Origin: Arthrobacter methylotrophus
GTDB taxonomy: Bacteria; Actinomycetota; Actinomycetes; Actinomycetales; Micrococcaceae
DNA: 64,000 nt
Direction: 5' to 3'
Assembly: GCF_039539965.1 (NCBI RefSeq)
Contig: NZ_BAABED010000001.1
Coordinates: 3,596,001-3,660,000 of the forward strand
In this document: positions 13,143-28,677 of the stretch, piece by piece
How positions within the stretch are numbered: position 1 is the first letter of the stretch
How the letters are laid out: the number at the start of each line of letters is the position of its first letter
Program-made: the position numbers and the translations under genes
Notes under the pieces: generated by a model
Databases searched by the model: none
What the model saw: the letters and a program-made list of their open reading frames with translations, nothing else
Told to the model about the DNA's origin: nothing

Positions 13143-13184
13143 GCCGCAATGGTGCGGCGCTGGAACCCCCGAATGGAGAACCTG

Positions 13185-14102
13185 ATGGCAAAGCCGCAGA
13201 CCCAGCGCGATTTCGTCGGATACGGCGAAACTCCCCCCGATTTCCGCTGGTCAGACGATGCCCGGGTGGCCGTTTCCCTCGTCCTCAACGTGGAGGAGGG
13301 CGCCGAGCGGAGTATCCCCCGCGGCGACAGCGCCAACGACCTGGGTGCGCACTGGATCCCGGCCCCGGCATCGGCCACACGAAACCTGACGCTGGAATCG
13401 GCCTTCGAATACGGCTCACGCGCAGGCATCTGGCGGTTGCTGCGGATCCTGCGGAAACACGACGTCCGGGCCACCGCCTTCTGCTGCGCCGTGGCACTGC
13501 AACTGAACCCATCCATCGCTGCGGCGTTGGTCCGCGACAGGCACGAAATAGCCGATCACGGCCACCAGTGGGACACACACACAAACCTGGACGACGATGC
13601 CGAGGAACGCCTCATCCGCGCCTCCCGCGATGCCATCGCGGCCAGCACTGGCCGGGCTCCCACCAGCTGGTATTCGCGCGACGGACTCAAGCCCGGAACG
13701 CGCCGGGTGCTCGCCGAGAGCGGATTCGCCTACGAGTCCAACAGCTTCAATGACGACCTGCCGCATTGGGGCTCCGGCCTGGAGAACCCGAAGCTTCCCG
13801 TGCTGCCCTACGCCGGAGACACCAACGATTCCGGGCTGTTCAAGCAGTTTCCCACCGCAAAATCGTTCGGCGACCACCTGATCGCAGCCCTGGACCTGCT
13901 CTTCGACGACCCCCGCGGCGGGCCCTCGGTGATGAGCGTTGGACTGCACCCCCGGCTCATCGGACGGCCGGCCTACGCCGCTGCGCTCGACCGCTTCCTT
14001 GCCCATGCGCGCGGCAAAGCGGCCTGGTTCGCGACGCGCGAACAAATCGTCAACGCCTGGGTACAAACGACGGCGAACGGGTCACCGGCGGGCGGTTTCT
14101 AG
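13185..14102 (+). CDS. PuuE-like polysaccharide-deacetylase-fold hydrolase (paralogue 1)
   Basis: A 305-residue protein of the allantoinase (PuuE) branch of the NodB/polysaccharide-deacetylase fold. N-terminal RDFVGYGETPPDFRW and AVSLVLNVEEGAERS are typical of this branch. The RDRHEIADHGHQW segment carries the His pair, and VMSVGLHPRLIGRP is the usual C-terminal signature. I chose the ATG giving MAKPQTQRD, preceded by GGAG six bases away. It is divergent from the amidohydrolase operon and is a clear paralogue of the gene at 16821. Probably hydrolyses a cyclic ureide or imide. Confidence 0.85.
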   Translation: MAKPQTQRDFVGYGETPPDFRWSDDARVAVSLVLNVEEGAERSIPRGDSANDLGAHWIPAPASATRNLTLESAFEYGSRAGIWRLLRILRKHDVRATAFCCAVALQLNPSIAAALVRDRHEIADHGHQWDTHTNLDDDAEERLIRASRDAIAASTGRAPTSWYSRDGLKPGTRRVLAESGFAYESNSFNDDLPHWGSGLENPKLPVLPYAGDTNDSGLFKQFPTAKSFGDHLIAALDLLFDDPRGGPSVMSVGLHPRLIGRPAYAAALDRFLAHARGKAAWFATREQIVNAWVQTTANGSPAGGF

Positions 14103-14159: not shown

Positions 14160-14879
14160 CTAGTGCACTGCGAGCAGCGCTCCCCACCCTGGGATCGACC
14201 GGGAGGAGTCGGCAAGGCGAAGCACGTGCCACAGGGTGGCGATGGCACTGTCCACGACCGGGATGGCGAACTCCTGCTCGAAACCCTCCACCAGATAGCC
14301 CGAGCGCAGGTTCGTGCCGACACAGACCACAGCATCGAGGCCATGCGCGAACGCCGGCCGCATCATGGCGCCAATGGCGGCGGTGTCCAACTGTGCGATC
14401 TCGGGGTTGCTCATTGCGGCCTCCGGAACCGAGACGACCTGCACGTCGATGCCGTAGTTGGCGTATTCCCGCTGTATTTGGGAAGCGATGCTTCCGGGGC
14501 CCGGAAAGACGAGACCGATCCGCGTTGCCGACAACGCACCGAGCGCTTCGACGACGGCCACGGAAGCCGTAGTGGCTGGCGCACCGCACACCGCCTTGAG
14601 CTCGTCACAGAGTGACCGGTCTTGGGTGATTCCGGTCCAGGAACCGGAGGTACCGTGGAAGGCGATGGCCTGCAGCTCGGCGTCGTTCAGCAACGCCGGA
14701 GCATCACCGAGAACGCTCAAGTCCACCGTGTCATCAAGGTTTGGCGGGAGACGGAACCGGCTGTAGTGAACCCCCAGGTCCGGTTGCCCGGCAAGGATCG
14801 CCGCCGTGAGCGTCTCCGCGTTCGAGTTGCTTGACGGGACCAGAATCCCCAGCCGTACCGCCGGCCCGGGAATGCCCAC
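14160..14879 (-). CDS. Asp/Glu racemase superfamily enzyme with a single catalytic cysteine (AMDase/maleate isomerase-like)
   Basis: A 239-residue enzyme resembling maleate cis-trans isomerase and arylmalonate decarboxylase: GILVPSSNSNAE at the N-terminus, then IAFHGTSGSWTG, then VVCVGTNLRSG. In isomerases and racemases of this fold each of the last two loops bears a cysteine. Here the first loop reads HGTSGS with no Cys, while the second keeps it, the one-cysteine pattern of arylmalonate decarboxylase. GTG start two bases after the stop of the XRE-cupin regulator, so co-translated with it. It could be a decarboxylase, racemase (e.g. hydantoin-type) or isomerase. Confidence 0.8.
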   Translation of the reverse strand: MGIPGPAVRLGILVPSSNSNAETLTAAILAGQPDLGVHYSRFRLPPNLDDTVDLSVLGDAPALLNDAELQAIAFHGTSGSWTGITQDRSLCDELKAVCGAPATTASVAVVEALGALSATRIGLVFPGPGSIASQIQREYANYGIDVQVVSVPEAAMSNPEIAQLDTAAIGAMMRPAFAHGLDAVVCVGTNLRSGYLVEGFEQEFAIPVVDSAIATLWHVLRLADSSRSIPGWGALLAVH

Positions 14880-14881: not shown

Positions 14882-15499
14882 TTAGTGAGCCTTGCCGAGG
14901 GACGGTGGCGTGGAGATCGCGAGCATGACTGCGGCCGAGTTCGTGTTATTGCTCCACCAGTGCGGCAAGGTGGCGTCATAGGTCAGGCTGTCGCCGGCTT
15001 CCAGTACAAAGTCCTGGCCGCCAATGGTTGCCACCAGCGTGCCGGATTGGAGGATGACGCACTCCTCGCCTTCATGGGAGTGCGGAACATGCGCGCCGTC
15101 GAAGTTGGCCGGAATCGTCATATTGATGACCCCCAGCTTACGTTCCGCGTCAGGAACGATCAGCTCCATGATGATGCCTTGTGAGGGGATTTCGATGCGG
15201 CGGCGGTCCGCTCGGCGCACGAGCATGTGGTTCTGCCCCTCGTTGGGGTCAGTAAACATGCTGGCCAGCGGCAGTTCGAGGGAGTTTGCCAAGCGCAGGA
15301 GGGTGGCAAAGGACGGGTTGCCGATTCCACGCTCGATCTGGCTGATGAGTCCTGCGCTGACACCGGCACGTTCGGCGAGCTCCTCCACCGTGAACCGTCC
15401 GAGTCGCTGCTCTTTGATCATTGCGCCAAGGTGGGCTATCCAGAAGTCGCGTTCCATGGACGCGGTTGCTTCGCCGCTGGCTGTGTCCGTGCCGTCCAC
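14882..15499 (-). CDS. XRE-family regulator with cupin sensor domain
   Basis: A 205-residue regulator. The N-terminal helix-turn-helix (about 25-80: FTVEELAERAGVSAGLISQI...GNPSFATLLRLANSL) is of the XRE/Cro type. The C-terminal cupin barrel (about 125-200) has HVPHSHEGEECVILQSG and LTYDATLPHWW. Such SutR/PuuR-like regulators usually repress catabolic genes and release on binding a metabolite. The longer frame is open, but the GTG at 15499 has GAAGGAG five bases upstream. A copy of the shared operator lies 38 bases before it, suggesting autoregulation. It is followed directly by the racemase-fold gene. Confidence 0.88.
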   Translation of the reverse strand: MDGTDTASGEATASMERDFWIAHLGAMIKEQRLGRFTVEELAERAGVSAGLISQIERGIGNPSFATLLRLANSLELPLASMFTDPNEGQNHMLVRRADRRRIEIPSQGIIMELIVPDAERKLGVINMTIPANFDGAHVPHSHEGEECVILQSGTLVATIGGQDFVLEAGDSLTYDATLPHWWSNNTNSAAVMLAISTPPSLGKAH

Positions 15500-15612: not shown

Positions 15613-16335
15613 TCACGCGGTCCTCAGCTCGGTGTAGCCAGTCAACATGGAGGCGAGTTCCTTCTCCCAGTAGACCGCACAACGGTCCGCTCCGCGCTCG
15701 AAAACCCGGGCTGCGGCGGCCATTCCGGGTGCCGGAAGTCCCACGCTGTGCCCCGCGCCGGCCACCACGTCCACCACGCGCTGGACGGCTTCCTGCAAAG
15801 CCTCCGGCCGCTCATCTCCATGCCGAAGAAGGTCTGCTGCCAGATCGGTGGGCCCCACCCAGCCCCCGCCAAACGCAGCGCTGCCAACAAATTCCTTGAC
15901 CCGCTCCACAGCTTCGGCTGTCTCGAACAACACCGCGATCACGGGAGCAAAGGAGTAGTCCATGCCGAATGCCGAGGCTGGCGTCACCTGCCGCGGACGT
16001 GATCCAACAGGGGCGTATCGCGTGGCTTCGTAGGCGCGTTCCAGCTCCTCCACAGTCCGGACCTGGGGCAGCACGATCTCCGCTACACCAGTGTTGGCGA
16101 AGGCCAGCAACGTATTCGTCTCCAGATCGGGCACGCGCACGGCCACCTTCACTCCGGATCCGGACAGGCGCTGCACTACACCACGGCATTCCTGGACGGT
16201 CATCCCGGTCTGTTCCGCATCGAGGACCAGAAAATCCACGGCCGTGTGGGCAAGGAGGGCAAGCAAGGTGGGGCTGGGATCTGCGGTGATGATTCCGACC
16301 CTGCGTTCAAGGGCGGCGGCTGGTTCCTGGATCAT
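15613..16335 (-). CDS. HpcH/HpaI-type aldolase/citrate-lyase family protein
   Basis: A 240-residue TIM-barrel protein of the class II 2-keto-3-deoxy acid aldolase group. Recognisable parts: VDFLVLDAEQTGMTV (normally D-x-E-H), KVAVRVPDLE, GVAEIVLPQVRTVEE, PRQVTPAS and GGWVGPTDLAADL. The family cleaves 4-hydroxy-2-oxo acids to pyruvate and an aldehyde, using a divalent metal. The usual LEHG is LDAEQTG here, and the usual glycine-rich ending is altered, so specificity may differ. GAGGA lies upstream of the ATG. Gap of 60 bases to the preceding cupin gene, same operon. Confidence 0.78.
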   Translation of the reverse strand: MIQEPAAALERRVGIITADPSPTLLALLAHTAVDFLVLDAEQTGMTVQECRGVVQRLSGSGVKVAVRVPDLETNTLLAFANTGVAEIVLPQVRTVEELERAYEATRYAPVGSRPRQVTPASAFGMDYSFAPVIAVLFETAEAVERVKEFVGSAAFGGGWVGPTDLAADLLRHGDERPEALQEAVQRVVDVVAGAGHSVGLPAPGMAAAARVFERGADRCAVYWEKELASMLTGYTELRTA

Positions 16336-16395: not shown

Positions 16396-16821
16396 TCACT
16401 CGTCAGGGACGAACTGCCAGTCCGCGGGCTTGCTGACCCCCACAATGAGCTCCACGGTTTCGTCGCCGTCGTTAGTGATTCCGTGCGTAGTGCCGCGCGG
16501 GATGTAGATGCCGTCTCCAGGTTTTGCCCGGTAGGTGCTGTTACCGAGGTGGACTATGGGCGTCCCGCTCAGGACGACGTAAAACTCGGACGCGTCAGGA
16601 TGGTGATGGCACAAGTGGTGCTGCCCGGGCAGTATCCTGCCCCAGCTGACGCACAAGTCATCTGAACCGCTGAGATCCCGGGAGATGAGCGTGCTGACCA
16701 GGCCTTGGTCGTGCTGCCCGTTGATGCCCACCTTGTCCAGAGCCGCGAAGCCTTGCTCGTGGACATTGTGGACCAGCCGGTCGATGTTGACGGTGGCGGT
16801 GCTTCCTCTGCCGGCGTGCAT
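16396..16821 (-). CDS. Single-domain cupin protein
   Basis: A 141-residue cupin. Motif 1 (CHHHPDASEFYVVLSG) and motif 2 (PGDGIYIPRGTTHGI) hold the usual three His and one Glu metal ligands. I use the ATG that overlaps the stop of the PuuE-like gene (TGATG); the longer open frame upstream is the shadow of that gene. Probably a small enzyme (isomerase, dioxygenase or similar) acting between the PuuE-like hydrolase and the aldolase. Exact reaction unknown. Confidence 0.82.
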   Translation of the reverse strand: MHAGRGSTATVNIDRLVHNVHEQGFAALDKVGINGQHDQGLVSTLISRDLSGSDDLCVSWGRILPGQHHLCHHHPDASEFYVVLSGTPIVHLGNSTYRAKPGDGIYIPRGTTHGITNDGDETVELIVGVSKPADWQFVPDE

Positions 16822-17753
16822 CAAGACACGCCCTCGAAGGCGGCCCCGGCCGTGACCGAGTGAGCCTGCACGGGCGGGTGTTCCATCCACCAGCGCGCGA
16901 TTTCCTCCCGGGTGGCGAACCAGACTCCAGACTGCGCAAGGGCGTATTCGAGGAACCGGCGTACTCCGTGGGCAATACTGGGCCGCCCTCCAATCCTCAA
17001 ATGCAGCCCTACTGACATCATCTTCGGCACGGTTTCGCCCTCGATAAGGAGGCAATCGAGGGTGTCTTTCAGCACGTTGAAGAAGTCCTCTGCTGTGCCG
17101 AGGCTGCCGTTTCCCCAGAATCTGGCGTCGTTCGTATCGCCGGAATAGGGGACCACCAAATGACGATGGGGGCCTGCCTGCACATAGTACGGAAGGTCGT
17201 CGGCGTAGGAATTCGAGTCGTACAGCACGCCTTCCTCCGCCAGGATGGTCCGGGTATTCTCAGTAATTCCCTCCCGGACGTACCAGCCCGAAGGCCGCAC
17301 TCCGGAAACAGCCTCGATGGTGGCCAGAGACTTACGGATCTCCTGCCGCTCTTCGTCGGGTTCCATTCCCACGGTTCCGCGCCACTTGTAGCCGTGGGCG
17401 CAGATTTCGTGGCCGTCCCGCACCAGAGCCAGGGCGGCGTCGGGATTCCGTTCGAGAGCGGCACCGCAGGCCATCACTGTTGCCCGGACGTTGTACTCCC
17501 GCAGCATGCCGAGGTAGCGCCAGATGCCCACACGGCTGCCGTACTCAAAGAAGGACTCTTTCATGAGGCTGCGCCGCGCGGGGTCGGCGGACCAGCCGCC
17601 GAAGATCGAGACGTCCTCGTCCCGTTCATCACCGTCTTCGATGGAGCTTTCGGCTCCTTCCTCGTAGTTCAGCACCAGGGAGACGGCAACTTTGGCGCCG
17701 TGCGGCCACGTGATAACCGGAGGGTTCTCTCCATATCCAATCAGGTCCCGCAT
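16821..17753 (-). CDS. PuuE-like polysaccharide-deacetylase-fold hydrolase (paralogue 2)
   Basis: A 310-residue paralogue of the 13185 gene: MRDLIGYGENPPVITW, AVSLVLNYEEGAESS, VRDGHEICAHGYKW, MMSVGLHLRIGGRP. It keeps the HGYKW form close to true PuuE allantoinases, whereas paralogue 1 has HGHQW, so the two may act on different substrates. The ATG at 17753 has GGAGAGAG just upstream; the longer frame is not needed. Followed by a cupin with one-base overlap. Preceded by a 138-base gap holding operator site C. Confidence 0.87.
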   Translation of the reverse strand: MRDLIGYGENPPVITWPHGAKVAVSLVLNYEEGAESSIEDGDERDEDVSIFGGWSADPARRSLMKESFFEYGSRVGIWRYLGMLREYNVRATVMACGAALERNPDAALALVRDGHEICAHGYKWRGTVGMEPDEERQEIRKSLATIEAVSGVRPSGWYVREGITENTRTILAEEGVLYDSNSYADDLPYYVQAGPHRHLVVPYSGDTNDARFWGNGSLGTAEDFFNVLKDTLDCLLIEGETVPKMMSVGLHLRIGGRPSIAHGVRRFLEYALAQSGVWFATREEIARWWMEHPPVQAHSVTAGAAFEGVS

Positions 17754-17873: not shown

Positions 17874-17894
17874 TATTGATAATACTTCACTTTA
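17874..17894. promoter_or_regulatory. Shared operator-like site C (puuE-like 2 promoter)
   Basis: TATTGAT then AATA then CTTCACTTTA. The right arm matches site A closely (CTTCACTATA); the left arm is weaker and the spacing one base shorter. It overlaps the end of the upstream MBL gene and lies about 120 bases before the PuuE-like gene. Confidence 0.4.
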
Positions 17895-18716
17895 CAGCTC
17901 CTGCCCTTCGTAGACCCTGCGATGGGCCGCCAGCGACGTTTTGAGCATGCTGTCGACATCGTCGATGACGTTTCCGTGGGCAGGCCCGATCAACCGGGTG
18001 GGGTAGGTTTCCAATGTCTCTTCGATGCCTTGGAAAGCCGTGCCCACATCGACGAATTTCGTCCAATAGAGCGCACGGCCTGTGCCGTACGCGGCCTGTT
18101 CCACCGAGGGAGGCGCCGGCATCTCGCTGGAGAGCAAACGGCACTGCCCTGGCAGGTGCACTGGTTCGTCATCCTCGTCCGGAGCTGGTATGTCGTGAAT
18201 GTAGGAAAAGCCGTCGGAGACGAACATCATCCCTACCGCGGAATCGTGACCCCAGAGCGTGTTCTCCAAGTCACGGATGTATGCCGGAAGGAAGCGGAAC
18301 TCCCTGTTGCCGAGATCCAGAGATTCCCCCGCGGCCTTGGCTTGCAGCCGGTCCGCGAACTCCGGGAAATGAAGGGAGTAGTCACGGACATCCCCCACAA
18401 CCACAGCCGAGGGGTATCGGTCCAATAAAGCGGGAAGATTGCCCGCATGCGGGATTTCCGGATGCGTCGGGAAAACGTAATCAAGCCTCCGGCCCCCCAG
18501 CGCATGGTCCAGTTGCCGAAGGACTGCGTCCCGGTGCGCCGGATCTCCGGTATCGACCAGGATCGAGGCTTCCGACCCGACCACCAGGTATGACGAGACG
18601 TGATAGTGGACTTCCTGGCCTTCAGCGCTGGCGGACAGGCAGCCGCCCAACCAGTGCACGCCTTCGGCGAGGACACGGCCCGTGGCGGGCAACCCGCCCG
18701 GAACTTGCGAGCTCAT
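17892..18716 (-). CDS. MBL-fold protein, pair 1, HPExPH member
   Basis: A 274-residue metallo-beta-lactamase-fold protein. The first metal motif reads THPEIPHAGN, like the H-x-E-x-D-H of flavodiiron-type MBL domains but with Pro in place of Asp. The later Asp (VSDGF) and His (GPAHGN) are kept. The usual intermediate His seems replaced (YIRDLENTLWG). No flavodoxin domain. Closely related over its length to the 21894 gene. Its ATG overlaps the stop of the second pair member (ATGA), so the two are made together and may form a complex. Reaction unknown. Confidence 0.8.
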   Translation of the reverse strand: MSSQVPGGLPATGRVLAEGVHWLGGCLSASAEGQEVHYHVSSYLVVGSEASILVDTGDPAHRDAVLRQLDHALGGRRLDYVFPTHPEIPHAGNLPALLDRYPSAVVVGDVRDYSLHFPEFADRLQAKAAGESLDLGNREFRFLPAYIRDLENTLWGHDSAVGMMFVSDGFSYIHDIPAPDEDDEPVHLPGQCRLLSSEMPAPPSVEQAAYGTGRALYWTKFVDVGTAFQGIEETLETYPTRLIGPAHGNVIDDVDSMLKTSLAAHRRVYEGQEL

Positions 18717-19480
18717 TGGATGCCTACCGTCCTGATTGCCGTGGCCAGGGCCGTAGCCGCCGCGGCAGATTCCGCCATGCCAACAATTGGTTCGCCGTAG
18801 CCGGGACCGATGGCCTTCACCTGTCGCCGGCGGACGGACTCTTCAACATCCCGGGCAATGCCGCGGGTATCGGCCCCGGAAAACCACTGGAACTTCCGCA
18901 AGCCGGCCGCGGCATTCGAGCGGCCGTACGAGCCGTGCGTGAAAGAATCCGAGGTCAGGAGCGCCCCCGATCCGGGATCGAAGATCCATAACGTTGGCAG
19001 GAGACGCATCAGCGGCGACACGAACTCCAAGGTCAGGCCGTCTATGACCTGAGCCTCAAGTGAGGCCCCCGGGTTGACCATGATGCGCCTGGGCGTTGCC
19101 GACATCCTCGGTACCGTGATTCCGCCGGTGTACCAGACCGATTCCACGTCGAATCGGGCCTCGATGGCGGGAAGATTCAGGCAGCATTCCATCTCCGTCC
19201 GTGTCAGCACGACGGCGAGCCGCTCCCCCGGCTCCAGAAGTGATTCCAGCTGCCGGATGATCTCTGCCTCATGGAGCCGGACGCCGGTGTCCACCAGCAC
19301 GGAGCCGTTGCTTCCCTTGATGAGGTAGCAATTGACGGGCTGGATGACGCTGGTGCCGGGTGGACACCAACTGACGTGTTCATCCAGGAGGATGTCCGCC
19401 CCCAAGCGATAGACGCGGTTGCCGATGAGGCTGTGGGGACCGTTGAAGGCGATCGCTGTCTGGGTTGTGTGCGGATTCAA
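18713..19480 (-). CDS. MBL-fold protein, pair 1, degenerate-site member
   Basis: A 255-residue MBL-fold protein (VLVDTGVRLHEAEII, LLTSDSFTHG). The metal motif is replaced by TRTEMECC, with Arg, Glu, Met and Cys where His residues would be. The final His loop reads GPGYGEP. Only the central Asp (TSDS) is clearly kept. The same replacement (TRPEMDC) occurs in the 22734 paralogue, so it is conserved and not random decay. TTG start with AGGAGG eight bases upstream. It lies 35 bases after an isochorismatase-fold gene and is coupled to the HPExPH member downstream. Confidence 0.78.
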   Translation of the reverse strand: MNPHTTQTAIAFNGPHSLIGNRVYRLGADILLDEHVSWCPPGTSVIQPVNCYLIKGSNGSVLVDTGVRLHEAEIIRQLESLLEPGERLAVVLTRTEMECCLNLPAIEARFDVESVWYTGGITVPRMSATPRRIMVNPGASLEAQVIDGLTLEFVSPLMRLLPTLWIFDPGSGALLTSDSFTHGSYGRSNAAAGLRKFQWFSGADTRGIARDVEESVRRRQVKAIGPGYGEPIVGMAESAAAATALATAIRTVGIQ

Positions 19481-19515
19481 CGATTTTTCCTCCTCTCGAT
19501 TCCGAATCGGACGGC

Positions 19516-20193
19516 CTAGGCGGGGGTGCTTGCCGAGTCCCAGACGGCGATCGCCTCATCCAGCGTGCAGACATCGTGGCGGGCCCGCATCACTGTCAGC
19601 GCAGCATCGTGCACCACGGTGTCGTATGCCCCGACGGCATCCTCGAGCAGGACGGCATAGAAATCGTTGTGGACAGCGTCCCGTAGTGTGGCCTCGACGC
19701 ATCCTCCGGTGGAGACGCCAACCAAGGCCACGGATTCGATGCCCTGGCTCCGGAGCAGGAGCGCCAGCTCCGTTCCTACGAACGCGCTGGGGCGGCGCTT
19801 GGTGATGATGACTTCGCCTTCTTCGGGCATGCACTCTGCACAGAACTCCGTCGCCGGATCGCCCGTGACGCTGAGCCTGCCCAAGTCAATGGGCCGGCCG
19901 TTGGCGGCGGTGTACAGGGCCCGTAGCCACGCGGCAGGTGAGCTGGCGCCGTCGGGCAGGTTTTCGACCCGGATGTGGAAGATGGGCACGCCGTTCTTCC
20001 GGGCCGATTCGATGGCCCGTCCGCAGCGCTTGGCGACGTCGGGCATCATGGAGAGGTCGTGGCCGGAGTCGCCGATTGCGCCGCCGGAGTAGACGGCACC
20101 TTCCTGCATGTCGATCACCACGAGGGCGGTGGTGGTCGGGTCCAGCAGTTCCTGCAGGGTGTCGCGGACCTGCTTTCCGCAGATTTCAATCAT
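19516..20193 (-). CDS. Isochorismatase-fold cysteine amidohydrolase
   Basis: A 225-residue hydrolase with the Asp-Lys-Cys triad visible: Asp in LVVIDMQEG, Lys in VIITKRRPSAF and Cys in VSTGGCVEAT. The cysteine-hydrolase branch includes N-carbamoylsarcosine amidase, ureidoacrylate amidohydrolase and nicotinamidase. The context (PuuE-like, hydantoinase, amidase) makes an N-carbamoyl amide the likely substrate, by inference. AGAAGGA lies about ten bases before the ATG. A strong hairpin separates it from the binding-protein gene upstream. Confidence 0.85.
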   Translation of the reverse strand: MIEICGKQVRDTLQELLDPTTTALVVIDMQEGAVYSGGAIGDSGHDLSMMPDVAKRCGRAIESARKNGVPIFHIRVENLPDGASSPAAWLRALYTAANGRPIDLGRLSVTGDPATEFCAECMPEEGEVIITKRRPSAFVGTELALLLRSQGIESVALVGVSTGGCVEATLRDAVHNDFYAVLLEDAVGAYDTVVHDAALTVMRARHDVCTLDEAIAVWDSASTPA

Positions 20194-20213
20194 GAGAGGT
20201 TTCCTTCTGTGAG

Positions 20214-20249
20214 GTGGTGCCGGCCGGATTCTGAGCCGGCCGGCACCAC
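20214..20249. terminator. Intra-operon hairpin downstream of the binding-protein gene
   Basis: Perfect 14-base arms (GTGGTGCCGGCCGG at 20214-20227 and its complement at 20236-20249) with an eight-base loop, in the 73-base gap after the substrate-binding gene. No T run, so it is likely an mRNA-stabilising or partial terminator element rather than a full stop. Confidence 0.6.
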
Positions 20250-20266
20250 GCGGGACTGCCGGCGGC

Positions 20267-21862
20267 CTAGCGGCCCAAGGCGTTGAAGTAGATCTGGCCG
20301 TTGGTCAGAGGCACGGCGCCGGTCAGCCCGGTCTTCGCGACCAGCATCCCCTTGGTTTCGACCAGCGAGAGGATGGCTGCGCCGTCGTCAACCAATGAGG
20401 CCATCTTGTTGAGAATGGTGGAGCGCTTGTCCGTTTCTGAACTAGGCGTGGCAGCAAGTTCGGTGCGCGCCTTGTCGAATTCCGCGTTGGACCAGCCGGT
20501 GCTGTTGCTCGGGGCACCGGTTGAGTAGAACGCGTAGCTGTAGAAAGCGGGATCGGCGATCACGATCGGCTCCGAGTAGAGCACCGCTTGATAGCGGCCG
20601 TCGATCAATGCCGTGGAGAAGTCGGTTGAGCTAGCCACGTTCTGCAATTGGACGTCAATGCCCACGTCCTTGAGCATGGACTGGATCAGGACTGCCGACT
20701 TGGCGGCAACCGGGCCCGGGCGGGTGGTGCTGTAGCTCAGTGTCAGCGGGAACCCATTGGCATATCCGGCGTCAGCCAAGAGCTTCTTGGCCGCATCCTT
20801 GTTGAACTTGTAGATTGGGGAGTCCGCAACATTGGGGAAGATGGAGCTGGCGGGTTTGCCGTAGCCGGCATACGCGCCCTTCACCAGAGCGTCCCGGTCG
20901 ATCGCCATCGAAACCGCCTGGCGTACTTTGGGATCAGCCAACGGACCAGTCTTGGTGTTGATCATCATCGTGTCGCGGGTTTGGCTGGCGCAGTTCAGGA
21001 CAGTCACGCCCGGGGACTGCTCCAAAGACTTGTACTGGTCATACTCGAAGCCGTTGGCCACCTGGACTTCGCCGGTTTCAACCAGCTGGCTGCGGGTGGC
21101 AGTGCTCTGGACAGCCTTGACCGAGACGCGTTTGACGGTTCCGCGTGCGCCCTCCCAGTTCGGATCCGCTGTGACGGTCAGCGACGCGCCCGGCGTAAAT
21201 TCTTCAAGCTTCCAGCCGCTGTAGTCGGCCAGGTTCTTCGAAAGCCAGTTGTTCGCGGTCGGATCGTCCGGCGTGACGTGTTTCTTGGCCTCGACGCTGT
21301 CGTGGATGTAGAACAGGTTGTTTTGCAGGGATTCCTGGGTGTAGGAGGTCAGGGCTGTGGTGTTGAGCTGGAGGGTATGATCATCGATCACCTTGACCAG
21401 GTTGTCCACATTGAATCCGCTGCTTTTTAGGGTTCCCTTCATGACTGGCTGCCGCTTCATGCCGATGTCGAGGCTCCACCGGACGTCCTCGGCCGACAGG
21501 ACATGCCCGAATTGGCTGGTGAGCTTGCGGAGGGTGACAATCACGCTGGTGCCGTCCGGGCTGGGCTTGGCGCTCTCGGCCAGCCGGCCGGATAGCTCCG
21601 TGGACGGTGCGGGGCAGGTCTTGCCGTCGCTGGCCCCGGTCTTGTACTCGAGGAGCTGCGAGCCGAGGCCGCTCAGCACCACATGGGAGGCGCTGCCTCC
21701 CCAGGGCGAGGGCGTGAGGCTGTCCGGCAGGGCTCCGACGGCAACGACAACGCTGTCGATGGCCTGGTTGACGGCCGCCTGCTGTGCGGGAGCACCGCAG
21801 GCGACGAGGGATGTGGCGAGGGCGACAACGGCGCCCCCGGTGAGCAAACGCAGACGATCCAT
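20267..21862 (-). CDS. Peptide/nickel-type ABC substrate-binding lipoprotein (SBP_bac_5)
   Basis: A 531-residue lipoprotein with a signal ending in lipobox LVAC (Cys near residue 22). The body fits the DppA/OppA fold: LRKLTSQFGHVLSAEDVRWSL, DPKVRQAVSMAIDRDALVKG, KKLLADAGYANGFPL. The open frame extends 82 codons further, but the ATG at 21862 has CGGAG eight bases before it and starts the signal peptide. It is the binding partner of the C-D-F-B transporter upstream, from which it is separated by two MBL genes. The ligand is unknown. Confidence 0.9.
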   Translation of the reverse strand: MDRLRLLTGGAVVALATSLVACGAPAQQAAVNQAIDSVVVAVGALPDSLTPSPWGGSASHVVLSGLGSQLLEYKTGASDGKTCPAPSTELSGRLAESAKPSPDGTSVIVTLRKLTSQFGHVLSAEDVRWSLDIGMKRQPVMKGTLKSSGFNVDNLVKVIDDHTLQLNTTALTSYTQESLQNNLFYIHDSVEAKKHVTPDDPTANNWLSKNLADYSGWKLEEFTPGASLTVTADPNWEGARGTVKRVSVKAVQSTATRSQLVETGEVQVANGFEYDQYKSLEQSPGVTVLNCASQTRDTMMINTKTGPLADPKVRQAVSMAIDRDALVKGAYAGYGKPASSIFPNVADSPIYKFNKDAAKKLLADAGYANGFPLTLSYSTTRPGPVAAKSAVLIQSMLKDVGIDVQLQNVASSTDFSTALIDGRYQAVLYSEPIVIADPAFYSYAFYSTGAPSNSTGWSNAEFDKARTELAATPSSETDKRSTILNKMASLVDDGAAILSLVETKGMLVAKTGLTGAVPLTNGQIYFNALGR

Positions 21863-21893
21863 AACAGTGACTCCGTTTATTGGGGGAAGAAAG

Positions 21894-22724
21894 CTAGGGC
21901 TGGGCGGTTTCGTAGCGGTAGGCCCGTTTGTGGCCGGCCCGGATGATGGGCTCCACGTCACGGATGTTGCTGATGAAGTTGCCGTGGGTCGGGGCCACGG
22001 ACTTGACGCCGAGATCATCAATAAGATGAAGGACGCGGTCATACACCGCGTCGGCATCATTGGCGAAGCGAGCCCAGTAGAGGGCGCTTCCGGTAAAGAA
22101 TGCAGCATTCTCGACGGCGACGGGTTCCCGGAGTTCGCTGGTGGTCAGACCGCATTCGCCCGGGAGGTGTACCGGGTCTTCGTCGTCGAGCTCGGGGCGG
22201 TGCATGTAGCAGAAACCGTCCGCGGTGAAGAGCACGCCGGCTTCAGGAACAAATCCCCATTGGGTGTTGGGCAGGTCCCGGATGAGGGCCTCCACCACCG
22301 TGAACTCCTGCCCGCCCAGTTCAATCCTGTCTCCGGGCACCTTTGCGTGGAGGTTCGGAACGATCTGCGGGTAGAAGAGGTGGTAGTCGCGGATGTCCCC
22401 TACCACCTTGATGTCCGGGTACTTCTCCACGAGCCGCGGGAGGTTTCCGGTATGGGGAAGCTCGGGGTGCGTGGGAAAGACGTATGTCAGCTGGCGGCCG
22501 TCCAGCAGTGCGTCGAGAGTGCGGGAAATGATGGGCCAGCTGGACGGGTTCCCTGTGTCCACCAGGATGGAGGAGTGCTCGCCCTGGACGAGGTAAGTGG
22601 AGTTGTGGCCGTGGATCACCCGGTCCGCCAGGTGGAAGGGGAGGCAGGAGCTCATCCAGGTGACGCCCTTCGCGACGCTGCGTGGGAGGTCGCTGCTCAT
22701 CGTTTCTATGAGTTGTTCTTCCAT
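21894..22724 (-). CDS. MBL-fold protein, pair 2, HPExPH member
   Basis: A 276-residue paralogue of the 17892 gene: SILVDTGNP, THPELPHTGNLP, KVVGDIRDYHLFYP, LFTADGFCYMH, ALYWARF and PTHGNF. As in pair 1 the fifth motif position is Pro instead of Asp. AGGAG lies just before the ATG. Nine bases separate it from the degenerate partner upstream and 31 from the binding-protein gene downstream. This ties the MBL pair to the transporter operon. Probably a hydrolase or a scaffold acting on the imported compound. Confidence 0.8.
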   Translation of the reverse strand: MEEQLIETMSSDLPRSVAKGVTWMSSCLPFHLADRVIHGHNSTYLVQGEHSSILVDTGNPSSWPIISRTLDALLDGRQLTYVFPTHPELPHTGNLPRLVEKYPDIKVVGDIRDYHLFYPQIVPNLHAKVPGDRIELGGQEFTVVEALIRDLPNTQWGFVPEAGVLFTADGFCYMHRPELDDEDPVHLPGECGLTTSELREPVAVENAAFFTGSALYWARFANDADAVYDRVLHLIDDLGVKSVAPTHGNFISNIRDVEPIIRAGHKRAYRYETAQP

Positions 22725-22733
22725 GATGGTCTC

Positions 22734-23561
22734 CTAAACCAGCTGCGGGGTGAGCGCGTCGAGCATGAATTCGAGGTGGCGCTGCACCACGTCGCGTCCC
22801 TTCAAGACGCATCCGCGGGACGGGGCGATGACCTCGGGCGCCAGGGTGTCGAACTTGTCCCGGAGCCATTCTCTAAGGGGCTCGCACGTGGAGCGGGGGA
22901 TCCATTCGTATTTTGCGTAGAGGTGGCCGGCCACCTGTTCCACGGTGGTGGTGTCCTCGACCGTGGAGTCGATGATGCGCTGGCCGTCGGGCCGGTCCAT
23001 CACGCCATGGGTGAAGGTGTCCGAGGTGAACAACGTGCCCGTTTCCTTGTCCCAGCCCCAGAAGGTGGGCAGGAGACGCAACAGGGGCGATTCAACTTCC
23101 AGCACGCGGCCGGGAGCTATTTCGATCTCCGCGGCCCGCGCCATGGAGTCGCCTTCCTCGGTCCGCTGGGCGTCGATCTGGTGGCGGCGTCCGCGCAGTG
23201 CCAGCCGGCTCAGGTCATCGAAAGCGTCGAAGGGATTGATGACGCCGCCGGTAAAGAGCCGTTCGATGTCGAACCTGCCGGCGATCGGTTCGAGGTTGGA
23301 CACGCAGTCCATCTCGGGCCTGGTGAAGAAGATGGAAACTCCCCCGCCTTCGCCAATGAGCCCTGCCAGGTCGTCAAGGATCTCTTCCGTGTGGACAGCC
23401 AATCCGGAATCGATCAGGAGACTGGAAGAGCCATCGGTCAAGAGGTAAGCGTTTGACGGCTGGAATCCTGTTGCACCTCGCGATACCCAGCTCACGCGGC
23501 CGTCGAGCGGAATGCTTCCGCCGAGGACCGCCAATTTGCCTGCATGCAATGTATTGAACAT
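22734..23561 (-). CDS. MBL-fold protein, pair 2, degenerate-site member
   Basis: A 275-residue paralogue of the 18713 gene: VSWVSRGATGFQPSNAYLL, FTRPEMDCVSNL in place of the His motif, LLRLLPTFWGWD, LFTSDTFTHG, and PSRGCV where the last His would be. The ATG at 23561 lies inside operator site D and has no normal ribosome site, so the mRNA may be leaderless. A downstream TTG (fifth codon) is an alternative. It follows the dppB-like gene by 55 bases and so may have its own promoter. Confidence 0.75.
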   Translation of the reverse strand: MFNTLHAGKLAVLGGSIPLDGRVSWVSRGATGFQPSNAYLLTDGSSSLLIDSGLAVHTEEILDDLAGLIGEGGGVSIFFTRPEMDCVSNLEPIAGRFDIERLFTGGVINPFDAFDDLSRLALRGRRHQIDAQRTEEGDSMARAAEIEIAPGRVLEVESPLLRLLPTFWGWDKETGTLFTSDTFTHGVMDRPDGQRIIDSTVEDTTTVEQVAGHLYAKYEWIPRSTCEPLREWLRDKFDTLAPEVIAPSRGCVLKGRDVVQRHLEFMLDALTPQLV

Positions 23562-23616: not shown

Positions 23617-24690
23617 TCAGCCCGGCTGTCCGGCTGGTTCGGCCGCAGGGCGCAGCTTCGATGGGCCCTTCTTGCCCTGGATGACGCCGCTGCGGGTGCG
23701 GGGATCCAACAGCGTGATGAGGGCATCCAGCAGCACGTAGCCCAGGAGACTCGTGGCCCCCATGATGAGGACGAACCCCTGGATGACAGGCACGTCGCCT
23801 TTGAGGACGCCGTCCAGGGACCACCCTCCGACACCGGGCCAGGAGAAGACGCTCTCGACGATGGCGGCGCCACTGAGTGCTGCGGCAAACAGCAGCACCA
23901 TGTACGTCATCAAAGCCGCGCGTACGTCGCTCAGGGCGTAACGGAACACCTGCAGCGGTTTCAGCCCGCAGGCCCTGGCGAATTCGATCTGGGGCGAATT
24001 CAGGACCTGAAGGAGGCCGGTCCGCACGGTCTTGCCAAACGGAGCTGCGAAGAACAGGCCCATCGTGATGATGGGCAGGGCTGCCCTGCCCAGGATGGAT
24101 TGCACTGTTCCCCAGTTCCCGGCGATCACCGCGTCCAAGGCAACGGATCCTGTGACTTTGGGCGGCGGAATGTCTGCGCTGGACAGCATTCCCAGCGGAG
24201 CGGGTGCCACATGGAGTTGTTGGTAGAAGATGAACAAAAGAAGGAGGGCAAGGACAAACTCCGGCATGGCCATGAGGACAGAGACGCCGGCGGTAAAGGC
24301 CTTGTCAGCCCCGCGCCCATAGCGGTAGGCCGCCAGCGCGCCCATGCCCAGGCCCATGAGTAGTGCCAGGACGAGGCCGGGAACCAGGTAAATCAGGGTA
24401 TTAGGCAAGCGTGTCCAAATTTCGCCCGCGACAGGGCTACCCGTGAAGAACGAATTTCCCAGATCTCCGTGCAAGGTGCGGCCCATGTACTCCAGATAGC
24501 GATCCCAGAACGGCTTGTCCAAGCCCAGTTGGGCATTGATCCGGGCAATATCTGCTGGAGTGGCATACTCGCCGAGCAATGCGACTGCCGGGTTGCCGGG
24601 AAGCAGCGAGACCAGGCCAAAGCTCAGTGTGATGAGCCCCAAAAGGAGCAGGAAGGCAATAACCAGACGGGACAGGACGTAGCGGATCAT
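23617..24690 (-). CDS. Peptide-type ABC permease, DppB-like
   Basis: A 357-residue permease. It starts with the typical MIRYVLSRLVIAFLLLLGLITLSF helix (shown here in part) and the GNPAVALLGEYATP/INAQLGLDKPF segment of DppB/OppB. The inner EAA-like loop (EFARACGLKPLQVFRYALSDVRAAL) precedes the last helices. The ATG overlaps the stop of the dppF-like gene (ATGA). It is placed last in the C-D-F-B block, whereas B usually comes first. Confidence 0.9.
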   Translation of the reverse strand: MIRYVLSRLVIAFLLLLGLITLSFGLVSLLPGNPAVALLGEYATPADIARINAQLGLDKPFWDRYLEYMGRTLHGDLGNSFFTGSPVAGEIWTRLPNTLIYLVPGLVLALLMGLGMGALAAYRYGRGADKAFTAGVSVLMAMPEFVLALLLLFIFYQQLHVAPAPLGMLSSADIPPPKVTGSVALDAVIAGNWGTVQSILGRAALPIITMGLFFAAPFGKTVRTGLLQVLNSPQIEFARACGLKPLQVFRYALSDVRAALMTYMVLLFAAALSGAAIVESVFSWPGVGGWSLDGVLKGDVPVIQGFVLIMGATSLLGYVLLDALITLLDPRTRSGVIQGKKGPSKLRPAAEPAGQPG

Positions 24691-25490
24691 GCCATGGTCG
24701 CCTTTTCTTCAGGGGTGTAAGGGATGGGAGGCATTGCCGCCGACATCAGCGCCTGTGTGTACGGCTGTTGCGGATTCGAGAGAACATCATCCGTGATGCC
24801 CGTTTCAACGAACCGTCCCCTGTGCATCACGGCCACGCGGGAACAGAAGTGCCGGACAGTCTCAATGTCATGCGAGACAAAGACATAGGTCAGCCCCCTG
24901 GAGACCTGCAGCTTCGCCAGCATCCGCAGGATGGATGCCCTGATGGTGAGGTCCAGCGAAGACGTCGGCTCATCCAGCACCACCAGGCTGGGGTCCGTGA
25001 CGAGGCACCGGGCGATGCCCACCCTTTGCTGTTGTCCGCCGCTGAGGTTGGCTGGGCGGCGGTCCAGGAACTCCTGGGAGAGTCCTACCTCTTCCAAGGT
25101 GTCGGCGACCCGGCGCAGTCGCTCGGCCCTGGATCCGTATGCCTTTGCGACAATCAGGGGTTCCTCGACAATCTGGCGGATGGTGAGGCGCGGATTCAGT
25201 GATGCGAACGGCTCCTGGAAGACGATCTGCCAGTGCCTCCGCCGTTTCCGCAGCTGTGCTTTCGACAACGCACGGATATCCTCGCCTTCGAGGAGTATGG
25301 TGCCGGAATCGGCTTCAATGAGCCTGAGGATGAGGCGGCCGAGGGTTGACTTGCCGGAGCCGCTTTCGCCAATGATCCCCAAGGTCTCGCCGCGTTCGAC
25401 GGCGAGGGAAATACCGTCCACAGCCTTGACCGGCAGTCCCTGCGGCGTTCGGAACGTCTTCCGGACGTCCTTCAATTCAATGATGGGCAT
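24687..25490 (-). CDS. Peptide-type ABC ATPase, DppF-like
   Basis: A 267-residue ATPase: Walker A GESGSGKST, Q-loop IVFQEPFASLNPR (typical of Opp/Dpp ATPases), signature [10 protein letters not shown], Walker B LVVLDEPTSSLD, switch SHDIETV. It lacks the usual C-terminal oligopeptide/iron-sulfur extension with conserved cysteines, so it is a short version. Two bases separate it from the dppD-like gene; it overlaps dppB-like by ATGA. Confidence 0.92.
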   Translation of the reverse strand: MPIIELKDVRKTFRTPQGLPVKAVDGISLAVERGETLGIIGESGSGKSTLGRLILRLIEADSGTILLEGEDIRALSKAQLRKRRRHWQIVFQEPFASLNPRLTIRQIVEEPLIVAKAYGSRAERLRRVADTLEEVGLSQEFLDRRPANLSGGQQQRVGIARCLVTDPSLVVLDEPTSSLDLTIRASILRMLAKLQVSRGLTYVFVSHDIETVRHFCSRVAVMHRGRFVETGITDDVLSNPQQPYTQALMSAAMPPIPYTPEEKATMA

Positions 25491-25492: not shown

Positions 25493-26356
25493 TCAGATGC
25501 TCCTGGATTCGGAGAGCTCGGTAGGAAGAGTTGTATCGTCGGGGCCCGGAACCGGGCTGTCCGCAGCAGCCTTTGGCTGAACGACGGAATTGAGCAGCGA
25601 GACGGTGTAGGGGTCCTGGGGACGGACGAACACCTCAGCCACCGGACCTTGTTCAACGATGCGGCCGCGGTACATCACCAGGACGCGGTCGCAGTAATTG
25701 GCCACCACCCCCAGGTCATGGGTGACGATCAGCATCGACCGGTCGCTCCCCTTCGTCAGCCGCGTGAGGGTGTCCAATACCTGCCGCTGCACGGTGAGGT
25801 CCAGCGCGGTCGTCGGTTCATCCGCGATGACCAAGCGGGGATTGAGGTACAGGGCCATGGCGATGACCACGCGCTGGGCCATGCCACCGCTGAGCTCGTG
25901 CGCGTAGCCGCGCATGACGCGGTCCGGATCGTTGACGCCGGAGGAGGCTAGCAGTTCGAGGGCCCGTCCGCGCGATGCGGCGTCAGCCTTGAGCCCGTGC
26001 GCCTTGGCGATGTTCGAGAACTGCTTTTCGATGCGCACCACCGGGTTCAGTGCACTGAAGGGGTTTTGCGCCACGAAGCCGATTTCCTTGCCCCTGATGG
26101 GGCGGATCTGCCGTTCCGGCATACGGATCAGATCCTGGCCGTTGAACTCGGCGGTGCCCTCCATGACTCGCCCCGGCGGCATCAGCAGCTTGACCACGGA
26201 GCGCACCACGGTGGACTTGCCTGATCCCGATTCGCCCACGACCCCCACGATTTCATTGGCGCCGACATCGAAGGAGATGCCATGGAGGGCACGTTTCACG
26301 CCCTCACGGGAGTGGAACTCCGTCACGAGGTCCCGCACGTGAAGTCCTGTTGTCAT
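25493..26356 (-). CDS. Peptide-type ABC ATPase, DppD-like
   Basis: A 287-residue ATPase: Walker A GESGSGKST, Q-loop FVAQNPFSALNPVVR, signature LSGGMAQRV, Walker B LVIADEPTTALD, switch VTHDLGVVANY. The true start is the ATG at 26356 (MTTGLHVRDL), which overlaps the stop of the dppC-like gene as ATGA. The open frame continues about 100 codons upstream but that part is the shadow of dppC. Confidence 0.92.
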   Translation of the reverse strand: MTTGLHVRDLVTEFHSREGVKRALHGISFDVGANEIVGVVGESGSGKSTVVRSVVKLLMPPGRVMEGTAEFNGQDLIRMPERQIRPIRGKEIGFVAQNPFSALNPVVRIEKQFSNIAKAHGLKADAASRGRALELLASSGVNDPDRVMRGYAHELSGGMAQRVVIAMALYLNPRLVIADEPTTALDLTVQRQVLDTLTRLTKGSDRSMLIVTHDLGVVANYCDRVLVMYRGRIVEQGPVAEVFVRPQDPYTVSLLNSVVQPKAAADSPVPGPDDTTLPTELSESRSI

Positions 26357-27240
26357 CGTGCCCGCTCCACTCGCTCGATCTTGGTTTCGATTGCTCCGGC
26401 AATCACATTGAGTGAGCCGATGGCCAGGAGCATGGCGGCGGTAGGAAACGCGGCCGCCCACCATTCGCCCCGGATTAGCATGCTGACGCCGTCGTTGATC
26501 ATGGCCCCCCACGTCGGCGTGGGCGGCTTGACTCCGACGCCAAGGAAGTTCAGTGCGGCAATGGTTCCCAGCGCGTTGGCCGCTGTCAGTGTTGCCTGCA
26601 CCAGGACCACGCCATATGCGTTGCGGAAGATGTGGTTGAACGCGATGCGGAGCGGTGAACAACCGATGGCCGCCGCGGCCTCCACGTACCTCGCCGAGCG
26701 AAGGGCCATGGCTGCTGCCCGGGACAGACGCACGAACCGTGGAGCCGCAACAATGGCGATCGCAAGGATGACATCCGTTGCCCCGCCGCCCATGAGCTTG
26801 ATGGAGACGACGGCAATCACGATGATCGGCAGTGCGGCGAAGGCATCAACGACCCGCATGATGGCCTCGCCCAGCCTGCCGCTGGTGGCAAACAGTCCTA
26901 GGGGGACGCCCACCAGGAGCGACAGTGCCGTGGCGGCCAGGGCGACCGGAAGGTCCAGCTTCGCGGCCTCGATAGTCCGGGAGAAGATATCCATCCCGTT
27001 TCCATCGGTGCCGAACCAGTGCGTCCCATTCGGCGCGATGCCGATCGCATCGGTGTCCGGACGCAGTGGATCATGCGGGAGCGGGGCCACCAATGCCATG
27101 AGGGGCAGACCCACAATGATGACCACCGCCATGGTGGCCATGATGGGGCTGGACCGGTTAATCAGGAGGGTCTGGCCCCGGCGGGCCCACGCCGCAGCCC
27201 GGAGCCCGGGCGAAGTGCGCGGCAGTCCTTGAATACTCAT
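26353..27240 (-). CDS. Peptide-type ABC permease, DppC-like
   Basis: A 295-residue permease with a first helix near residues 30-55, then the DppC-typical HDPLRPDTDAIGIAPNGTHWFGTD block, and later the EAA loop (RYVEAAAAIGCSPLRIAFNHIFRN). First gene of the operon, preceded by GAGGAGG five bases before its ATG. It is the only permease gene at the front; its partner dppB-like lies after the two ATPase genes. The promoter should lie in the 449-base region to its right. Confidence 0.9.
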   Translation of the reverse strand: MSIQGLPRTSPGLRAAAWARRGQTLLINRSSPIMATMAVVIIVGLPLMALVAPLPHDPLRPDTDAIGIAPNGTHWFGTDGNGMDIFSRTIEAAKLDLPVALAATALSLLVGVPLGLFATSGRLGEAIMRVVDAFAALPIIVIAVVSIKLMGGGATDVILAIAIVAAPRFVRLSRAAAMALRSARYVEAAAAIGCSPLRIAFNHIFRNAYGVVLVQATLTAANALGTIAALNFLGVGVKPPTPTWGAMINDGVSMLIRGEWWAAAFPTAAMLLAIGSLNVIAGAIETKIERVERAR

Positions 27241-27689
27241 GGAGCCTCCTCGGAGAGTCCGGGGGTAGTGATGGTCATAGCGAAGTGGAGACTGGGCCGG
27301 CTCGTATTGAGCCCACTCGCAATGTATTGAAGATTGGCCTGGCTGAGGACCTGCGGCTGTTGCATGTTCAGCTCCCTGTTCGTACCTTGAGAGGTAAATC
27401 CCTCATATCAAAGTCTCGTCACTTTATTGAATTCGACTGTAGCGCCAAGTGTGACCAATTGCACTCTTTTCGGAAAATCGCGAGGAAATGGCCGGATGCG
27501 CAGCCCGATCAAGCCCTTCGCAGCCCTGCCAATTCAAGGTTCAGGGCTCATCGGGACGCGAGGTCAGCGGCAGTCGGACCATTGACACCACCCTTAAGTG
27601 TCTTCAATATAGTGAGCAAGTACCGATTGCGATGAAGCTGGGGTGCCGTCGCCGCCAGCACCACGGAACAGATGAGGAACGGACCTACG
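27241..27689. promoter_or_regulatory. Divergent regulatory region with several operator-like sites
   Basis: 449 bases between the dppC-like gene (leftward) and the aminotransferase (rightward). It holds TATTGAAG at 27325, TATCAAAG...TCACTTTA at 27407-27427 followed by TATTGAA at 27426, and CTTCAATATA at 27602 (complement of TATATTGAAG). All resemble the shared operator. GCAATGTATTGAA at 27320 is identical to a stretch at site D. I see no coding sequence here. Confidence 0.55.
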
Positions 27690-28664
27690 ATGCCCAACTT
27701 TCAAGAAACAGCAGCCGAAGTAGCCACCCGGCAGACCGCCCCGGGACAGCCGGTGAAGTATTTGCTCCACGACGGAGAGCTGGTGGACTACGCCGACGCC
27801 CGCCTCCATGTGCTGAGTACCTCGCTGAAGTACGGCGTCGGCGTGTTTGAGGGGTTCCGCGCGTACTGGAGCGAGGACGACCAGCAGCTGTACGCGTTCA
27901 GGGTGGCGGACCACCTGAAGCGACTGATCGATTCCATGAGGGTGGTGGAGATTGACGGGCCGCAGGATATCGGACTGCTCGGCGATCAGCTGCTGGGCCT
28001 CATTCGGGCCAATGAGCTGCGGGGCAATCTGCACATGCGGGCCCAGGTATTTGTTGATTCAAAGGATGGCAAACCGGAGGATACCGGCCCCTCCACCGTT
28101 TTCATGGCCGCCATTCCCATGGGCAACTATTTCGGGAGCACGGGATTGCATGTGCAGATCAGCAGCTGGGCCCGGCTCTCTGACCGGTCCATGCCGCCCC
28201 GGGTGAAGTCGATTGCCAATTACCAGAACGGCCGGCTTGCCTTGTTGGAAGCCAAGCGGAACGGTTATGGTGCCGCGCTGCTGCTCACGGAGAGCGGGCA
28301 CGTCGCCGAGGGCGCCGGTTACAACGTCTTCATGGTCCGTCAGGGAAGGCTCTGCACTCCCCCGGTGACGGACAGCATCCTCGAGGGAATCACTCGGGAC
28401 AGTGTCCTGCACCTCGCCCGCACTGAGCTGGGTATCGACGTCGACATCCGCCCCATCGACCGCACTGAGCTGTATTCAGCCGACGAAGTCTTTGTGTGCG
28501 GCAGCGCCGCGGAGGTCAACCATGTCGCGTCGGTGGACCGCACCACCATCGGGAAGGGAACAGCCGGCGACATCACCCGCAGCCTCCAGAAGCTATACCG
28601 GCAGGCCGTCGTCGGACGTGTCGCCGGCGACCAAAACTGGGCCACGCCCGTCTACCCGTCCTGA
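27690..28664 (+). CDS. Branched-chain amino acid aminotransferase family (fold IV)
   Basis: A 324-residue PLP enzyme of the IlvE/D-amino-acid-transaminase fold. Visible parts: STSLKYGVGVFEGFRAYW, LHMRAQVFVD, the PLP lysine in VKSIANYQNG, LTESGHVAEGAGYNVF, DSILEGITRDSV and a late CGSAAEV segment. The ATG giving MPNFQETAAE has GAGGAACGG upstream. It starts the rightward operon with the acetamidase and the hydantoinase-like enzyme. It is not in a biosynthetic context, so a catabolic or D-amino-acid role is plausible. Confidence 0.87.
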   Translation: MPNFQETAAEVATRQTAPGQPVKYLLHDGELVDYADARLHVLSTSLKYGVGVFEGFRAYWSEDDQQLYAFRVADHLKRLIDSMRVVEIDGPQDIGLLGDQLLGLIRANELRGNLHMRAQVFVDSKDGKPEDTGPSTVFMAAIPMGNYFGSTGLHVQISSWARLSDRSMPPRVKSIANYQNGRLALLEAKRNGYGAALLLTESGHVAEGAGYNVFMVRQGRLCTPPVTDSILEGITRDSVLHLARTELGIDVDIRPIDRTELYSADEVFVCGSAAEVNHVASVDRTTIGKGTAGDITRSLQKLYRQAVVGRVAGDQNWATPVYPS

Positions 28665-28677
28665 GAGGAGACGCAGT

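Follow-up and report, generated by a model that had tools for sequence, protein, structure and literature searches.

A linked pair of flavodiiron-branch metallo-beta-lactamase-fold proteins, one with a degenerate metal site, as a candidate two-part enzyme in Arthrobacter methylotrophus

INTRODUCTION

Why would an operon hold, twice over, a gene for a metallo-beta-lactamase (MBL)-fold protein beside a gene for a sister protein with most of its metal site gone? A 64,000-nucleotide stretch of the Arthrobacter methylotrophus genome (here called the window; positions 3,596,001 to 3,660,000 of contig NZ_BAABED010000001.1, assembly GCF_039539965.1) raises this question, with two such pairs, a1-b1 and a2-b2, on its minus strand (Table 1). 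A preliminary description of this DNA had placed HPExPH (a) and TRxEM(D/E)C (b) members at 17892, 18713, 21894, and 22734, and all four open reading frames (ORFs) and motifs are found there. We think it likely that each a-b pair makes up one heteromeric enzyme of the flavodiiron protein (FDP) branch of the MBL fold, with a catalytic a and a metal-free b.

RESULTS

The four proteins are 255 to 276 amino acids long, and the order of transcription is b2, a2, binding protein, isochorismatase, b1, a1. The b1 and a1 genes overlap by 4 bp, while 9 bp lie between b2 and a2; the pairs had been described as coupled or nine bases apart, and as flanking the binding-protein and isochorismatase genes of an import operon, and both statements are accurate, the importer being of the Opp/Nik type of ATP-binding cassette (ABC) transporter. 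The motif stretches read THPEIPH (a1), THPELPH (a2), TRTEMEC (b1), and TRPEMDC (b2). As had also been noticed, a resembles a and b resembles b, with 44% identity for a1/a2 and 37% for b1/b2 versus 22 to 31% across a and b. Antisense to a2 and to most of b2 there is an open frame of 687 codons (21393-23456, plus strand), which probably reflects the high G+C content of the coding sequence.

The two families do not occur mostly alone, a possibility that the preliminary description had singled out for checking. Among 396 sampled genomes of the phylum, three have a (five genes) and the same three have b (five genes, after removal of four weaker matches that are a genes). Here a was counted only at 288 bits or more (three genomes, five places); 77 of the 396 genomes match at E 1e-15, and the other 74, scoring at most 89.7 bits and mostly through frames of about 400 amino acids, were set aside as FDP-like by score alone, not one by one. 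In a sample of 197 genomes of the family, a and b are both found in the same five genomes, two of each. The genome of the window sits in both samples, which leaves two (phylum) and four (family) independent genomes. With b as the seed, a scan gave 22 loci, all with a beside b; adjacency holds for 43 of 43 pairs in 28 loci, with no orphan. Likewise, a neighboring b was present at 36 of 36 loci found with a as query, of which 15 come from samples drawn irrespective of b (two being the window's own pairs) and 21 from genomes known to hold b.

The a and b trees, compared over 45 pairs, are correlated at 0.948, a value that none of 2000 permutations reached. Members of pair 1 and pair 2 form separate clades in each tree, which supports the claim that the pair was duplicated or acquired as a whole. 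The same signal is expected of linked genes that travel together, and so the mirrored trees and the linkage point to a unit of inheritance rather than to contact. Two apparent b-a gene fusions (frames of 593 and 611 amino acids in G100) turned out to be overlapping frames or read-through of two separate genes. A protein search with the b alignment gave at least 1784 matches (8000 candidates scored), the best 120 of the 1784 being listed. At E 1e-30 or 1e-35, where remote relatives are missed, a Pseudomonadota sample gave 1 match in 398 genomes and the order of G601 gave 1 in 180, only the seed genome G601 in each case, and 3 of 179 genomes matched in the class of G100, G100 included.

Sequence and predicted fold both assign a and b to the FDP branch. 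The a profile matches 2ohh at E 2.3e-25 and the b profile matches 1ycf at E 2.9e-5, both of them FDPs, and FDPs rank at the top of the fold lists for the AlphaFold models of a1 and b1; absence of a family from these lists does not exclude that family. For PF00753 (gathering threshold, 22.7 bits), a1 and a2 score above threshold (48.0 and 44.7) and b1 and b2 below it (21.5 and 16.1), the b1 model still having the MBL fold. For PF19583, the ODP family (27.2 bits), the scores are 22.8 for a1, 22.3 for a2, and 13.6 for b2, with no match for b1; precomputed annotation assigns this family to many a relatives, though the window proteins score under threshold. No flavodoxin domain is among the Pfam matches of the a and b proteins. 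The absence of an HxHxDH motif in a and b rules out a canonical MBL hydrolase.

Neither protein carries the ligand set of the 10 FDP rows compared, which is H-x-E-x-D-H, His148, Asp, and His; a has H-E-P-H, Asp149, Asp168, and His247, and b has R-E-[DE]-[CS]. The a alignment has 120 rows (118 matches plus a1 and a2, with a1 counted twice; P0207 and P0208, a short fragment and a marginal match, were left out). In a1 numbering, H85, E87, and H90 are present in 120 of 120 rows, D149, H174, and C192 in 119 each, D168, E198, and H247 in 118 each, and P89 in 116. Aligned by profile with 1ycf, P89 falls at the motif-2 Asp of FDPs and D149 at His148.

The b alignment has 208 rows (206 matches plus b1 and b2, with b1 counted twice). 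Every row keeps Arg81, Glu83, and the bridging Asp181 (b2 numbering), and the motif stretch is free of His throughout. The Cys position of the motif is C in 163 rows, S in 42, and A in 3; the position of b1 Arg159, which aligns with FDP His148 by profile comparison, is R in 205 and K in 2; the last ligand position is Y in 117, R in 71, H in 18, and another residue in 2. Rows of the proteobacterial type have the motif RINEYMS, and in an Agrobacterium b from outside the 208 rows Asp replaces Glu83 (RRDVDS). Judged from these alignments, b has lost most, not always all, of the metal ligands.

Selection has acted on b. The ratio of nonsynonymous to synonymous substitution (dN/dS) for a1, b1, a2, and b2 against the orthologous loci L004, L014, and L005 is 0.05 to 0.24 in 12 of 12 comparisons, and 0.09 to 0.24 for b alone; the ratios are rough, since dS exceeds 1 in 8 of the 12, and the L014 b1 is a fragment. 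The low values argue that b is a maintained, nondecaying protein, and positions beyond the motif (Ser, Trp, Asp, Asn, and Pro) are also invariant. It had been claimed that an identical Arg-x-Glu-Met-Asp/Glu-Cys was kept by selection; the selection is borne out by dN/dS and by Arg and Glu in every row, and the exact string varies among relatives.

The pair reaches well beyond the Actinomycetota. The plasmid records examined were seven of the eight with an a2 match (H4 left out) and four of six further ones (H10, H13, H15, and H17; H11 and H14 left out), and a pair is present in 11 of 11. The gene order is b-a on a Rhodococcus plasmid and reversed, a-b, on plasmids of Roseomonas haemaphysalidis, R. 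marmotae, and Agrobacterium, where the b motifs are RREQDC, RREHDC, and RRDVDS, respectively. In Natrinema zhouii, Halalkalicoccus, Halocatena, Halobaculum, N. salinisoli, and Paracoccus, two MBL genes lie side by side and each carries H-x-[ED]-x-P-H; these intact pairs (L110, L111, L114, L115, L116, and L117) mostly adjoin TRAP, tripartite, or ABC transporters. A third MBL-fold gene lies near the haloarchaeal pair of Halocatena (L114, 2623-3525). In L023, titled as a Thermoflexus hugenholtzii metagenome-assembled genome, the pair and its neighbors are near-identical to the betaproteobacterial L021 and L022, and the contig is probably mis-binned.

A tree of 66 sequences, with an outgroup of 10 FDP rows, has b as monophyletic (support, 0.81) and unites b and the intact Paracoccus partner in a clade (support, 1.0); several deeper nodes are weak, at 0.49 to 0.70. 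The grouping of b with the intact Paracoccus partner is suggestive, not firm, evidence that pairing came before loss of the metal site of b, with one intact relative at that node.

From its gene content, the cluster around the pairs looks like one for catabolism of an imported nitrogen-containing organic compound (Table 1). Within 11720-31057, both pairs, the isochorismatase, and seven downstream genes are in conserved order in 14 of the 22 b-seeded loci (L004 to L017; Arthrobacter, Sinomonas, and Microbacterium). The order is kept in part at L018, and in Amycolatopsis (L019) pair 2 is on a different contig. Microbacterium sp. ASV81 (L016) keeps both pairs; no importer of the window type was found beside them, and a divergently placed transporter set, 47 to 57% identical, lies upstream. 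In Arthrobacter sp. Hiyo8 (L008 and L014, 10001-10782), several cluster genes, including b1 in L014, are split in two frames, by sequencing error or decay. A 1.0-Mb plasmid of Arthrobacter sp. StoSoilB13 (L113) bears both pairs, about 4 kb apart.

Elsewhere, genes for Rieske and Amidohydro_2 proteins lie no more than about 8 kb from the pair in two genomes from the phylum (L103, 10421-12437; L106, 10387-12254) and on a haloarchaeal plasmid of Natrinema (L110, 3394-4685), the Rieske proteins being small. A flavin reductase gene is directly downstream of a in L024; one is also near the Agrobacterium pair (L109), but it adjoins an LLM-class oxidoreductase and is possibly the partner of that protein.

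Table 1. The two pairs and the genes around them, in window coordinates
Feature	Coordinates	Strand	Basis or remark
a1, MBL-fold protein, FDP-like metal site HPEIPH	17892..18716	-	ORF and motif; AlphaFold model, predicted local distance difference test (pLDDT) 90.1
b1, MBL-fold partner, degenerate metal site TRTEMEC	18713..19480	-	ORF and motif; AlphaFold model, pLDDT 90.0
a2, MBL-fold protein, FDP-like metal site HPELPH	21894..22724	-	ORF and motif; 9 bp downstream of b2
b2, MBL-fold partner, degenerate metal site TRPEMDC	22734..23561	-	ORF and motif; orthologues directly beside a2 orthologues in loci examined
Isochorismatase-like hydrolase between pairs	19516..20193	-	PF00857; nearest models BiuH and RutB, far below cut-off
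SBP_bac_5 binding protein	20267..21862	-	Start inferred at ATG 21862; longer ORF overlaps a2
ABC permease, OppB/NikB-like	23617..24690	-	Family models
ABC ATPase, DppF-like	24687..25490	-	Family models
ABC ATPase, DppD-like	25493..26350	-	Start inferred
ABC permease, OppC/NikC-like	26353..27240	-	Family models
PuuE-like protein, polysaccharide deacetylase fold	16821..17753	-	Start inferred
Cupin	16396..16821	-	
HpcH/HpaI aldolase family	15613..16335	-	
XRE-cupin regulator	14882..15499	-	Start inferred
AMDase/Asp-Glu racemase family	14160..14879	-	EutA-like, below cut-off
Second PuuE-like protein, divergent	13149..14102	+	
Amidohydrolase	11720..13093	-	
Class IV aminotransferase	27672..28664	+	Branched-chain model above cut-off
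FmdA/AmdA acetamidase/formamidase family	28648..29640	+	Start not fixed
Dihydropyrimidinase/allantoinase-like amidohydrolase	29618..31057	+	

DISCUSSION

We imagine that a carries the catalytic metal site, with H85, E87, H90, D149, D168, and H247 of a1 as the ligands suggested by alignment. The set would be an acidic one of the iron type, with Pro at the position of the second-motif Asp of FDPs and Asp at that of His148. The metal-free sister would be b, in which, of the FDP histidines, two appear as Arg, one as Cys or Ser, and the last mostly as Tyr or Arg. In a paper on the superfamily, a His-to-Glu change in FDP motif 2 is said likely to help hold Fe(III), and divergent Synechocystis FDPs are said to carry changes that prevent metal binding (PMC7785958); from these statements we infer that a binds iron and b none. 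It seems probable that b lends stability to a and that it gates or shapes an active-site cleft shared by the two. On this model, a1b1 and a2b2 would be two such enzymes in a catabolic operon, acting on a nitrogen-containing organic compound that is imported by the peptide-type ABC transporter and taken apart by the amidases, aldolase, and aminotransferase. Hydantoins, cyclic imides, and nicotinate-type rings are conceivable substrates.

Several points weigh against this reading. The bridging Asp, present in every b row, and the last His, present in 18, make weak metal binding by some b proteins possible, and the site of a, without the motif-2 Asp and His148, might be weak or hold a single metal. 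Two enzymes of one pathway traveling together should likewise show linkage and mirrored trees, and no a-b gene fusion was seen among the matches. No Rieske or flavin-reductase type of donor is among the window cluster genes scanned, and the redox hint from such neighbors elsewhere is thin. The precedents are imperfect as well. Flv1 and Flv2 are without canonical ligands, Flv2 heterodimerizes with Flv4, and accumulation of Flv3 depends on Flv1, though one Anabaena Flv3 is believed to function independently of Flv1 (PMC4390876). INTS9, which has lost motif 2, pairs with the active INTS11 (PMC7980224), to which it is 21.7% identical; the two dimerize mainly via C-terminal domains, with minor contacts between nuclease domains, and a and b have no such C-terminal domains.

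It is unlikely, in our judgment, that a and b are instead two independent enzymes that catalyze successive steps and lie side by side only through their shared pathway, with b having gained a metal-independent catalysis based on its conserved Arg, Glu, Asp, and Cys. Conservation of b far past the motif fits such an enzyme, as do the haloarchaeal and Paracoccus partners, which are intact and suggest that the ancestor of b was probably a working enzyme. However, two free enzymes should sometimes part, and none were seen to; the Cys is replaced by Ser or Ala in 45 of the 208 b rows; and the surroundings of the pair are very diverse (ABC, TRAP, and tripartite transporters, aldolases, and Rieske/amidohydrolase genes), with no other gene common to all by eye.

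We consider it less plausible still that b is a regulatory or sensory subunit, sensing substrate or redox state from outside the active site. Stand-alone ODP proteins of the FDP branch are oxygen sensors, according to titles of Protein Data Bank (PDB) entries and to PMC7785958. Yet the window cluster already has an XRE-cupin regulator, and the annotated plasmids have ordinary regulators near the pair (GntR, LysR, IclR, or sigma-54 type), with a PAS-domain gene in L112, none of them common to all. That b is a decaying duplicate of a, retained through linkage, is scarcely credible: the lost metal ligands would fit decay, and one split b1 was seen, in L014, but the dN/dS of b, its invariant Arg, Glu, and Asp, and the failure to find any a without b all speak for a protein in use.

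What reaction would the heteromeric enzyme carry out? The preliminary description had proposed a heteromeric hydrolase or an enzyme with an altered partner. A paired, selected, and altered partner is strongly supported by co-occurrence with no orphans in the samples, by adjacency even where the gene order is reversed, by the mirrored trees, and by the purifying selection on b. Nothing speaks specifically for "hydrolase": the closest relatives are flavodiiron oxidoreductases, and a lacks the motif-2 Asp of the HxHxDH hydrolases. FDP ancestry, the missing Asp, and the donor-type neighbors lead us to lean toward an iron-dependent redox or O2 step, for which the chances are a little short of even; hydrolysis is possible, tentatively, and some other reaction is rather unlikely. 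The hydroxylamine oxidase DnfA, an AurF-type diiron protein, is unrelated to a-b. One can envision that a-b founds a bacterial and archaeal family of two-subunit, FDP-fold iron enzymes that activate O2 or perform another redox step on imported organic acids, in some lineages with Rieske proteins or flavin reductases as electron donors, and in which one subunit lost its site after the heteromer had formed; as a whole, this picture is doubtful.

From Arthrobacter to Roseomonas the two members of the degenerate pair remain neighbors, and haloarchaea have intact pairs that are adjacent as well. If the pair is one enzyme, these would form a natural series, from both sites intact (haloarchaea and Paracoccus) to one lost elsewhere, showing a heteromer in the course of losing an active site. 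A fold known for sensors and for reductases of O2 and NO would gain a catabolic branch, and the substrate of a conserved actinobacterial catabolic cluster becomes testable. The unit is hard to spot in databases because its halves are labeled apart: on the four annotated bacterial plasmids examined that have a degenerate partner (Rhodococcus, the two Roseomonas, and Agrobacterium), "MBL fold metallo-hydrolase" stands beside "hypothetical protein."

That leaves the relation to known systems. The preliminary description knew of no described enzyme made of such a pair. For the specific pair nothing found contradicts this, in that no description of the a-b pair or cluster was found in the open-licence literature searched, which is weak evidence of novelty; for the kind it does not, since Flv1/Flv3 and INTS9/INTS11 are active/inactive MBL pairs. 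Like them, a-b consists of two homologous chains in the same genomes, one without most metal ligands. A two-part enzyme of the a-b type seems not to have been described previously. The ODP diiron oxygen-binding sensors (6qrq, 6r9n, and 6qwo) have other ligand changes and a sensor use, and the window proteins score below the cut-off of their family. Flavodiiron proteins (FprA, ROO, and the FlRd core) share with a-b an MBL domain of the same branch, Glu for His in motif 2, the bridging Asp, and, in a, the last His; they differ in that a-b has no flavodoxin domain, is made of two different chains, and, in a, has the second-motif Asp replaced by Pro and His148 by Asp. Flv1/Flv3 and Flv2/Flv4 are three-domain proteins of photosynthetic electron transfer, whereas a-b is a bare MBL-domain pair in a catabolic setting. 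INTS11/INTS9 and CPSF73/CPSF100 also join an active MBL protein to a sister with a lost motif 2, but they are beta-CASP RNA nucleases held together by C-terminal domains, and a and b have neither feature. Thus, two missing FDP hallmarks and the lack of RNA-nuclease domains set a-b apart, as a pair that belongs to neither Flv1/Flv3 nor INTS9/INTS11 within a kind of active/inactive MBL pairing that is already known.

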